Origin: a virus
IMG/VR virus record: IMGVR_UViG_3300046507_000088
Coordinates: 1 to 45,075 of that record
Direction: 5' to 3' (one strand)
DNA length: 45,075 nucleotides
Positions 1 through 43,443 of the stretch are shown here, in pieces; position 1 is the first letter of the stretch, and each line of letters starts with the position of its first letter. The position numbers were made by a program, and so were the translations under genes. The notes beneath the pieces are model-generated. The model did not search any database. It saw only the letters and a program-made list of their open reading frames with translations, and had not been told where the DNA came from.

Positions 1-215
1 GTATCCGCGAGGTATTCAAGGCGGCGTGCAGGAGGGCGAAGATCGAGAACTTCAGAATACACGACACGAGACACACATGGGCAACGTGGCACTACCAAGC
101 TAACCGGGACATCGGCGCGCTTCAGAAGCTCGGTGGCTGGAGGACGCTAGCGATGGTAATGCGCTACGCTCATACGAACGTAGACGAACTCAGCGACACA
201 ATTGGGAGGCTCTGA
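1..215 (+). CDS. int: Tyrosine-recombinase integrase, C-terminal part (partial at window edge)
   Basis: Reading from base 3, the frame encodes about 70 residues ending at TGA 213-215. It has the C-terminal half of a tyrosine recombinase: HDTRHTWATWH contains the H-x-x-R catalytic pair, LGGW follows, and MRYAHTN places the nucleophilic Tyr after a short helix. The N-terminal part is at 44529-45075. Joining the two ends keeps the frame, but about 75-80 residues usual for the family, including the first catalytic Arg (the G-x-R-x-G-E region), would be missing. So either some sequence is absent between the window ends or the gene is interrupted. It should catalyse site-specific integration and, with an excisionase, excision. 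The next gene's ATG overlaps the stop (TGATG). Confidence 0.9.
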   Translation, partial: IREVFKAACRRAKIENFRIHDTRHTWATWHYQANRDIGALQKLGGWRTLAMVMRYAHTNVDELSDTIGRL

Positions 216-39365: not shown

Positions 39366-39390
39366 ATTCCCTCCCTATTTGGAGATACAT
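39366..39390 (+). promoter_or_regulatory. Phage RNA polymerase promoter P5
   Basis: TTCCCTCCCTATTTGGAGAT followed by ACAT is a full match to the five-copy motif. It precedes the AT-rich block and the structured non-coding region. The stem CGATAC-CTA / TAG-G-GTATCG (39392-39414) follows at once and would be near the 5' end of the transcript. Confidence 0.8.
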
Positions 39391-39414
39391 ATCGATACCT
39401 AGCTTTAGGGTATC

Positions 39415-39570
39415 GGTATAAGAAGATTATATAATAATATCATATAGTTAGATACTAGTACTCTGAATAGATACTACTAGTATGTATATATCTAGCTACT
39501 GAATTAGGTACGGATCAGTAGTACAGAACTAGCTACTCATACTAGATAACATACTGATATATATACAATA
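39415..39570. other. AT-rich block, candidate replication origin
   Basis: The first 60 bases after 39420 are only about a quarter G+C (TATAATAATATCATATAG). A phage promoter lies directly upstream, which is the layout of the T7 primary origin (promoters followed by an AT-rich stretch). It contains ACTAGTA-type palindromes, two CTAGCTACT repeats (39492-39500, 39529-39537) and a hairpin CTACTGA/TCAGTAG (39496-39502 with 39515-39521). An extended -10 element (TG-A-TATATA, 39555-39563) could start host transcription near 39570. Confidence 0.5.
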
Positions 39571-40595
39571 TCTCTGCGCAGTCATTAAGCCGGAATGGCT
39601 GAATTAGATCATTCTACGTAGTATCGTACAGATACAGCACAGAGAATGTTCTGTAGTAAGATCAATCAGATAACTGCATATCATCCTACTGATCCAAAAT
39701 ACTGGTATCGGTACGGATGAAACGTGCTATTGTTCGGTTGTCGCAGCGATGCGGCGGGACTGACAGACTGCTTCGGCGACTTGTCCTTACCTGCTTCATA
39801 AGCCAGCGATAGCTACAGACTGGAATACATAGGCTGCACTAGCCTCAATAGTGACGGATTGCAGAACGAAACAATGGCTGCACTTGTGAGTGACTAGCAG
39901 GGGAATAACCGCTTAGGTAGCGCGTGAGCCATACGAGGTTGGCGCTACTGTTTGAACCGGATAAGCCGCGCGAAGTCCGATGCCTTGAGGCACCACTAGT
40001 ATTTGCTGATCTATGGAACCATACCGTTCCGAATGATTAGCGCGTGATTAGTGCACTGTGAGCCGCATAGGCGTTCCATCTTGGATGGCACAGAGTAAGA
40101 CACTGATTGAATGCGCGCTATCGCTAGGTGCAACGGGGAGCAGGCCGAAAGTCAGCAAGGTAACACACAAGCGCACTAGCTATCGCAACAGCCAAGCTTG
40201 CTAGTGGTGTGTACCAGTTAATTGCACTCTCTTTCAGCGTCATGACTGCTAGGCTTAGGCGCGGACACGCTACACACAAACGTAGAGCGGGTTTCATCTA
40301 AGCTATCTGCACGATTAGAGCGGGTTAGAGACCGGCACTAACTTCATAATTACGCAAATTGCATGGGCCAGCTAGGCACTGTGGAACGTAGGGATACGCA
40401 CCACGCTACAAGTGTGCCTAGTTGGTTATGCGAGCACAGAGCACGTAAGAACTACGGGTGAACGTGGGTAATAGGGAATACTGGCCTAGTGCCAAGACAA
40501 CCTATGAAGCGGGTCGAGAGTAGGCACGTTGAGAATGCACGGATGTAATGCGTTCTCTATTGGAAGCCTCTGTGCTCACGTAACCAACTAGTGAG
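39571..40595 (+). ncRNA. Large structured non-coding RNA candidate (about 1 kb)
   Basis: About 1 kb without a credible ORF in a genome where genes otherwise overlap. Nested helices: 39681-39696 with 39703-39720 (16 bp, two bulges); 39724-39736 with 39867-39883 closing a multibranch region; 39917-39923 with 39942-39948 (7 bp); 40038-40053 with 40101-40120 (16 bp, one bulge) enclosing 40056-40060/40089-40093 and 40076-40080/40084-40088; 40159-40168 with 40207-40215, stacked on 40174-40180/40200-40206; and 40418-40441 with 40568-40591 (22 Watson-Crick, one G-U, one mismatch), enclosing 40461-40466/40525-40530, 40482-40485/40491-40494, 40501-40504/40521-40524 and 40531-40539/40549-40557. Nearly all non-Watson-Crick pairs are G-U when read on plus, supporting a plus transcript. 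It may be transcribed from P5 or from an extended -10 near 39558. Ends are approximate and no known RNA family was recognised. Confidence 0.65.
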
Positions 40596-40601
40596 CAAGC
40601 C

Positions 40602-40799
40602 ATGAATACAGAAACGATTGCGGGAATGATCGTATACGGGAGCATGTTCGCCATGCTTCTTATTGTTCTATTCCTTATGGGTGGATGGCCAGCGGTTGCT
40701 GTCATCAATCTAGCCACGGGTAAGGTGCACATTCTCGGTACGTGCATCATGTACGCCATTGGTGCGCTCGTTGTGTACGCAATGGCCTATAGGATTTAA
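40602..40799 (+). CDS. Small membrane protein, first early gene
   Basis: 65 residues; ATG lies 10 nt after the last helix of the putative ncRNA. Two hydrophobic segments: IAGMIVYGSMFAMLLIVLFL (about 5-25) and ILGTCIMYAIGALVVYAMAY (about 45-63). No strong Shine-Dalgarno sequence, so the upstream RNA structure may control its translation. Function unknown; early small membrane proteins in phages often alter host membrane processes or block superinfection. Confidence 0.65.
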   Translation: MNTETIAGMIVYGSMFAMLLIVLFLMGGWPAVAVINLATGKVHILGTCIMYAIGALVVYAMAYRI

Positions 40800-40803
40800 G
40801 TAC

Positions 40804-41013
40804 ATGATGACACTACATGAGGCGCATCTGCGTCTGCAACAGAACGGCATGCGTATGACAGGACGGTATCGCGATTGGACGATTAACTTCGTTGAGGATC
40901 GCGACAACCGCCATGCGTACCACACTGACGACCTTGAGGACGCTGTTCTCATGGGCGGCACCATGCGGCGCAATCGGCGGAATGCTGTTGCTGCTCGCTA
41001 CGCCTTTGCCTGA
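40804..41013 (+). CDS. Early hypothetical protein, 69 aa
   Basis: Begins at ATG 40804 or 40807, just after the previous gene. Basic and polar (LHEAHLRLQQNGMRMTGRYR, HTDDLEDAVLMGGTMRRNRR). No recognised motif. Confidence 0.55.
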   Translation: MMTLHEAHLRLQQNGMRMTGRYRDWTINFVEDRDNRHAYHTDDLEDAVLMGGTMRRNRRNAVAARYAFA

Positions 41014-42643: not shown

Positions 42644-42928
42644 ATGACACTGCGAGATAAACTCACGCGGCGCTTGAATGTTCAGGCTGAGCACGAAGGC
42701 GAAGACGCGGTTAAAGACTGCCGCACTGTTCTCGCGCATTGCGCATCGGAGAACGAGTGGCGAGCACTGACTACCGTGCGTTGGCATCGCTATGGGCCTA
42801 TGTCGTATGAGGCTCACGCATTCTACGATTTGAAGCCGTTTGTGCGCGTTATCGCCGAAGCACTCACGGAAGAAACGTGCGAGCACTGCCGCGCGAAGAA
42901 GTACCTCGTTTGCTTAGGGTGCCACTAA
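42644..42928 (+). CDS. Early protein with C-terminal Cys pairs, 94 aa
   Basis: ATG 42644 with GAGGGG upstream. The last 20 residues hold CEHC and CLGC, a probable zinc knuckle. The body is charged (LRDKLTRRLNVQAEHEGEDA). Overlaps the ArdA gene by TAATG, so it may be co-translated with it. Confidence 0.6.
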   Translation: MTLRDKLTRRLNVQAEHEGEDAVKDCRTVLAHCASENEWRALTTVRWHRYGPMSYEAHAFYDLKPFVRVIAEALTEETCEHCRAKKYLVCLGCH

Positions 42929-43443
42929 TGAGCGAATACACAACGCCACGGCTCTACGTTGGCACGTACGCCAAGTACAACAACGGCTCGATCAAGGGCG
43001 CATGGCTCAATCTTGACGACTACAGCGACAAGGATGCGTTCCTCGAAGCGTGCAAGGAATTGCACACTGACGAGGCTGATCCTGAGTTCATGTTCCAAGA
43101 CTACGAAGGCTTTCCGCGTTGTTACTACAACGAGAGCCATGTGCCTGATGCGTTGTGGGAGTGGATCGAACTCGATGACGACGACAAGACGATGCTCGAA
43201 GCATACATCGAGCAGGTCGATCAGAGCGGCGACATTGACAAAGCGCGTGAAGCGTTCATGGGCAAGGCCGACACTAAAGCCGCGTTCGCAGAACAGTGGC
43301 TTGAAGATACATGCGCTCTTGAAGGCGTCCCTGACGTACTGAAGCGCTACTTCGATTACGAGGCATACGCTCGCGATATGGAGCACGAAGGAATTACGTT
43401 CGTGCGTCTGAACGGTGAACTGTGGGTATTCAACAACAACTAG
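42928..43443 (+). CDS. ardA: ArdA-family antirestriction protein
   Basis: 171 residues; ArdA proteins are usually about 165-170. The start TPRLYVGTYAKYNNGSIKGA followed by WLNL, FMFQDYEGFPRCYY, and very high Asp/Glu content throughout are the family pattern. ArdA is an elongated DNA mimic that inhibits type I restriction-modification enzymes. Expression in the early region protects incoming DNA, replacing the T7 Ocr strategy. Confidence 0.9.
   Translation: MSEYTTPRLYVGTYAKYNNGSIKGAWLNLDDYSDKDAFLEACKELHTDEADPEFMFQDYEGFPRCYYNESHVPDALWEWIELDDDDKTMLEAYIEQVDQSGDIDKAREAFMGKADTKAAFAEQWLEDTCALEGVPDVLKRYFDYEAYARDMEHEGITFVRLNGELWVFNNN

Follow-up and report, generated by a model that had tools for sequence, protein, structure and literature searches.

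Evidence for a large structured RNA preceding the early genes of a temperate T7-like phage

A noncoding region of about 1 kb, lying between the late and early genes of a temperate, T7-like phage of the Autographiviridae, in all likelihood represents a genuine RNA that has not been described before, because relatives of the phage keep the same fold there despite different sequences. The location corresponds to the left end of the T7 genome, and the RNA is most plausibly viewed not as an independent gene but as the leader with which the early transcript begins; its last part is an arm adjoining the first early gene. Throughout, "the window" denotes the whole stretch of DNA analyzed (45,075 nucleotides), and the positions of features within it are collected in Table 1.

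Table 1. Positions of features discussed in the text
Feature	Position	Strand	Basis or remark
Tyrosine integrase	6-182		Left edge of record
Phage-RNA-polymerase promoter-like site CCCTCCCTATTTGGAGAT	39369-39386	+	Placed like T7 phiOL; promoter identity inferred
AT-rich stretch	39390-39570	+	About 33% GC; candidate host promoter or origin region
Structured RNA, about 1 kb	39571-40598	+	Fold z -4.0, covariation, same-place homologues
Hairpin with UUCG tetraloop (39772-39775)	39762-39785	+	UCCG in homologues; outer pairs covary
P1 (40003-40009 with 40152-40158)	40003-40158	+	Paired in all six homologues; three pairs double-changed
Core module, 5' side, AUGGAACCA	40013-40021	+	Invariant in homologues; also NMeng1, L035, RHph_X3_9, Alfirin
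P2 (40024-40030 with 40127-40136, then 40035-40037 with 40120-40122)	40024-40136	+	Alignment, covariation
P3	40046-40053/40101-40108	+	Within variable-length outer domain beyond P2
Core module, 3' side, GCAGGCC	40140-40146	+	Homologues; also NMeng1, L035, RHph_X3_9, Alfirin
P4 hairpin (40159-40168/40207-40215 and 40174-40180/40200-40206)	40159-40215	+	Conserved loop GCCAAG
P5 (40216-40222 with 40337-40343)	40216-40343	+
Helix A (40361-40378 with 40415-40431)	40361-40431	+	96% and 95% of cells paired in two parts
Arm B (40418-40430/40579-40591 and 40432-40441/40568-40577)	40418-40591	+	Encloses variable domain
First early gene, 65 aa, hydrophobic	40602-40799	+	Differs between near-identical genomes

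Genomic setting, coding potential, and folding

The window encodes a single-subunit RNA polymerase and a terminase that is 63%-69% identical to those of Rhizobium, Agrobacterium, and Nostoc phages, and close relatives of the phage are prophages in Bradyrhizobium and Pannonibacter. The integrase gene appears to be split by the ends of the record. In three prophages, ~3-6 kb separate the RNA core from an integrase gene downstream, so that the early genes and the polymerase gene may sit at opposite prophage ends. An ArdA-type antirestriction gene is found in the early region (42877-43443); the related phage Pasto carries one too, third in its early region.

An initial annotation, made without database searches, had read the region as a candidate new large structured RNA without a credible gene, and had named comparison with dinucleotide-shuffled controls, covariation in homologues, and an Rfam search as checks. 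The absence of a gene was borne out: no plus-strand open reading frame (ORF) of at least 50 aa exists between 38897 and 40602, and the two minus-strand ORFs (40124-40297 and 40502-40759) cover stretches with large nontriplet indels in homologues. Measured against dinucleotide shuffles, the whole region folds with z = -4.0 on the plus strand (32 kcal/mol below the shuffle mean) and z = -3.0 on the minus strand. The excess is largest for the 200-nt windows that begin at 39601, 40301, and 40401; values for flanking genes are mostly near 0 to +1.5. The extent first assigned to the RNA, 39571-40595, was correct, with conserved pairing spanning about 39576 to 40591.

Homologues and covariation

A search with the neighboring early protein led to a homologous region in one genome (L004), and a terminase search led to four more, in Bradyrhizobium sp. 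LTSP885 (L106), B. retamae (L105), a metagenome phage (L032), and Pannonibacter sp. SL95 (L107). In all, five other distinct genomes carry a homologous region in the corresponding location, and three of these are Bradyrhizobium or Pannonibacter prophages. The region in L004 is 74% identical over 1,198 bases, yet the early protein is only 54% identical; blocks of more than 100 identical bases alternate with blocks that have been replaced wholesale. A core model (R1) comprising P1, P2, P4, and the core module described below is met by all six sequences and, in full, by no other genome searched. Searched in 272 Bradyrhizobium and 87 Pannonibacter-family genomes, the model recovered known prophages only, and on other Rhizobium and Agrobacterium phages, with filters off, it found no core except a weak match in phage Alfirin (E = 0.083). 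When the region itself was compared with 50,697 phage records by blastn, no match resulted. Since the full core is available in only six distinct sequences, the consensus for 39571-40000 is weak, and this stretch remains poorly resolved. One further contig (L121), retrieved with a 20-base arm B pattern, was discarded as a chance match and appears to come from an RNA phage.

Covarying pairs are present and strong. In the six-sequence alignment of the core, 33 pairs are held in 88% of cells, and 17 are double-changed, compared with 3-7 when partners are slid. The full five-sequence alignment supports 69 pairs in ten helices, with 94% of cells paired; 25 of the 69 pairs are double-changed, a count that falls to 2-5 when one arm is slid by 1-3 columns and that none of 500 shuffles reached. 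Because the pairs were selected manually, on the basis of RNAalifold output and inspection, the excess over the slid controls is partly built in; the double changes themselves are not explained by this choice. The arms of P1, for example, occur as TTGCTGA/TCAGCAA, CTGCGGA/TCCGCAG, ATGCGGA/TCCGCAT, and AAGCGGA/TCCGCTT, and P4, which together with P4b contributes nine double-changed pairs, reads GGTA-CACAC/GTGTGTACC in the window genome and GGAA-TAAGC/GCTTATTCC in B. retamae. In the Pannonibacter prophage, P5 has 19 pairs and arm B has 23, with hardly any of the sequence shared.

Judged from the alignments, then, the region is a structured plus-strand RNA, because paired cells are conserved, double changes exceed those of the slid controls, and a tetraloop stays UNCG across homologues, varying only at the N (UUCG to UCCG). 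The bias of G-U pairs to the plus strand, on which the initial annotation had based its choice of strand, is also seen among the chosen pairs (19 G-U versus 9 A-C cells), and the tetraloop change is the stronger strand argument. Of four long helices proposed from the single genome, two (40159-40168/40207-40215 with 40174-40180/40200-40206, and 40418-40441/40568-40591) proved exact and have covariation behind them, and a third (40038-40053/40101-40120) is partly right, corresponding to P2b/P3 and kept in three homologues. The fourth, 39681-39696/39703-39720, is present in this genome and not recognizable in homologues, and is therefore lineage-specific at best.

A core module shared among autographivirus lineages

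In the core module of the fold, AUGGAACCA stands opposite GCAGGCC, flanked by two helices. Nine genomes contain the arrangement AUGGAACCA, P2, GCAGGCC with no mismatch, in each case on the phage plus strand within the left-end gap, against a chance level of 0.67 matches per strand at up to one mismatch (from shuffles of the whole 1.1-Mb set). These genomes include contig L035, Nostoc phage NMeng1, Rhizobium phage RHph_X3_9, and Agrobacterium phage Alfirin, the last three being cultured phages without overall similarity to the region. P1 beside the module appears, by inspection, to covary between NMeng1 and L035, and in Alfirin P2 has shrunk to a three-pair hairpin capped by GAAA. Taken alone, the E-value for Alfirin is weak, and the match draws weight only from its location and the identity of the motif. 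A pattern for the module was found in 29 IMG/VR contigs, including L125, which is L035; the other 28 were set aside as chance, as nearly all matches fall in long ORFs and the contigs show no relatives of the phage proteins. The RNA class extends well beyond the phage of the window, to several autographivirus lineages. An invariant module of this kind suggests a binding partner. The module is absent from T7.

Left-end gaps of 0.8-2 kb are common to many relatives. Such noncoding gaps fold better than shuffles on the plus strand in 41 of 43 sampled relatives, and the plus-strand excess is the larger in 38 of them; individual values are rough because each rests on ten shuffles. In other phage clusters, covariation between pairs of sequences points the same way without being decisive. 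Pasto (L122, 1-1051) and Percy (L153, 1-1401) have ~0.8-1.2 kb of noncoding sequence after the terminal repeats, without the core module.

Upstream elements and the first early gene

The motif CCTCCCTATT.GGA, which is probably a promoter of the phage RNA polymerase, occurs on the plus strand at 673, 20477, 32054, and 39369, all T7-promoter-like positions, and at the last of these CCCTCCCTATT.GGA is conserved in all six homologues. A TACAAT/TATAAT/TATACT hexamer is aligned among homologues at 39564-39569. No match to the sigma-70 consensus was found upstream on the plus strand, nor was the CtrA box pattern TTAA-N7-TTAA present. On the T7 map, phiOL lies at 405, the host promoters A1-A3 at 498-750, and gene 0.3 at 925, and the T7 early leader (L152, 500-920) folds with z = -4.0 on the plus strand and -0.4 on the minus strand relative to shuffles. 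The RNA of the window lies between the phiOL-like promoter and the first early gene, as does a T7-type early leader, with the host promoter not identified. Given the position of that promoter and the strand-specific folding of the T7 leader, we read the region as an enlarged T7-type early leader that is an RNA in its own right.

Arm B is a conserved helix of 23 bp that ends 10 nt before the first start codon; the Pannonibacter arm, also of 23 bp and of different sequence, ends 20 nt before the first gene. The 98% identity to two near-identical genomes (L023 and L025) stops exactly at 40602, the start codon of the first gene, so that the RNA behaves as a unit ending at arm B. A 65-aa membrane-type ORF (40602-40813) is inserted between arm B and the following gene, and L025 has another gene there; in L004, L106, L105, and L032, the following gene adjoins arm B directly. 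Helix A and the lower part of arm B share 40418-40431 and are mutually exclusive, and each is kept in about 95% of cells across five sequences, which suggests a switch. In the window genome alone, the predicted fold strongly favors arm B (0.97 versus 0.03 for helix A). Arm B would be the last to form during transcription and could displace helix A.

Proposed function and alternatives

The best explanation, in which we place about even confidence, is a structured and processed early-leader RNA of ~1 kb that acts in trans. Transcription, processing, and function are all inferred here, and no transcript data stand behind them. The RNA would form the 5' part of the early mRNA, made by the host polymerase early and by the phage polymerase from the phiOL-like promoter later. 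Host RNase III would then cut arm B, a helix of about two turns beside the first ribosome-binding site and as long as RNase III substrates are, and so free the RNA, as in T7, where an RNase III site lies in a stem next to the first gene, before gene 0.3. Once free, the RNA, which would be among the earliest phage products in the cell, may act in trans, with the AUGGAACCA/GCAGGCC module as a docking site for a host or phage partner, and exchange between helix A and arm B would time its release. Our confidence falls along this series, from transcription within the early mRNA, through cleavage at arm B, to trans action by way of the module; cleavage by RNase III and trans action are proposals resting on analogy and position. 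Against the whole stand the size of the RNA, far beyond what an mRNA processing site needs, and the lack of direct support for a function in trans. More tentative still is the suggestion of a new class of large T7-family (Autographiviridae) RNA, made before any phage protein, that disables or redirects a host system in trans.

The main rival is a purely cis-acting role, possible in our judgment and somewhat doubtful, in which the fold would govern how the first early genes are transcribed, by nascent-RNA antitermination, or translated, and helix A and arm B would serve as the two states of a switch beside the ribosome-binding site. The equal conservation of two mutually exclusive helices would suit it, as would an arm ending 10 nt from a start codon directly upstream of the early operon; however, 450-600 nt separate the gene from most of the conserved sequence upstream of it, near-identical phages carry different first genes after an unchanged RNA, and known cis-acting leaders of this type, at tens to a few hundred bases, are shorter than ~1 kb. 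If the RNA were instead free-standing and formed a homo-oligomeric particle, functionally like GOLLD and ROOL and unrelated in sequence, its comparable size, its phage or prophage origin, and its conserved core with variable peripheral arms would be accounted for, and those two RNAs are known to form RNA-only cages (PMC12286853). That reading is unlikely, as a terminator between the RNA and the first gene was sought and not found, no Rfam family matches, and the window has no tRNA genes.

The structure could also matter as DNA, in a replication origin or in packaging or terminal-repeat signals, given the AT-rich phiOL-like neighborhood, the annotation of terminal repeats (260-371 bp) at the corresponding end of Paso and Palo, and a minus strand that likewise folds better than shuffles. 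We consider this very improbable, because the UNCG loop change, the G-U excess on the plus strand, and a long-range, bulged, multidomain pairing that covaries all fit RNA, and 38 of 43 relatives show the same bias to the plus strand. The idea that a decayed coding region folds by chance can appeal to a folding excess that alone is modest and that appears on the minus strand too, but it is already contradicted by the covariation and by a core conserved across genomes, and is scarcely tenable.

Known phage RNAs and early functions

In an Rfam search, at gathering thresholds and at E ≤ 5, no family matched the region apart from a chance snoRNA match; GOLLD and ROOL, which had not been recognized by eye either, were not matched by their models. 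With the folding excess and the covariation, this supports the initial view of a new large structured RNA in a T7-like phage, its transcription being inferred. Our literature search, whose coverage left out most subscription journals, turned up no account of an RNA of this kind in T7-like phages. The transcriptome study of the temperate T7-like phage LUZ100 reports an antisense RNA that maps to the structural region, while an RNA at the left end did not appear in the searched passages (PMC10134795). A conserved RNA of ~1 kb at the genome end of many members appears to have gone undescribed although the Autographiviridae are among the best-studied phage families. Cultured phages such as RHph_X3_9 and Alfirin provide models for deleting a large phage RNA, probing it, and using it in pull-downs, so that the role of large ornate phage RNAs becomes testable; the exclusive helices and the shared core offer concrete sites for mutation.

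GOLLD and ROOL often, though not always, occur near tRNA islands. The RNA of the window resembles ROOL, whose function is likewise unknown (PMC12286853), as a large multibranched phage RNA of comparable size, and differs in position, in lacking a model match, and in lacking a tRNA context. It resembles GOLLD, which has about 800 nt or more and whose function is unknown (PMC12286853), in phage or prophage origin, in size, and in combining conserved and variable parts, and differs in that no model matches, no tRNA context exists, and early genes follow it. The put antiterminator RNA of phage HK022 is, as proposed for the window RNA, a nascent phage RNA located where an early operon begins; it is a short two-hairpin element, in contrast to ~1 kb. 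The early mRNA leader of T7 has the same left-end order of elements and a plus-strand folding excess, at about 175-430 nt as against about 1 kb. If the RNA does disable or redirect a host system in trans, it would be to this phage what the Ocr step is to T7, carried out by an RNA whose shared core serves as docking module and whose periphery evolves fast.
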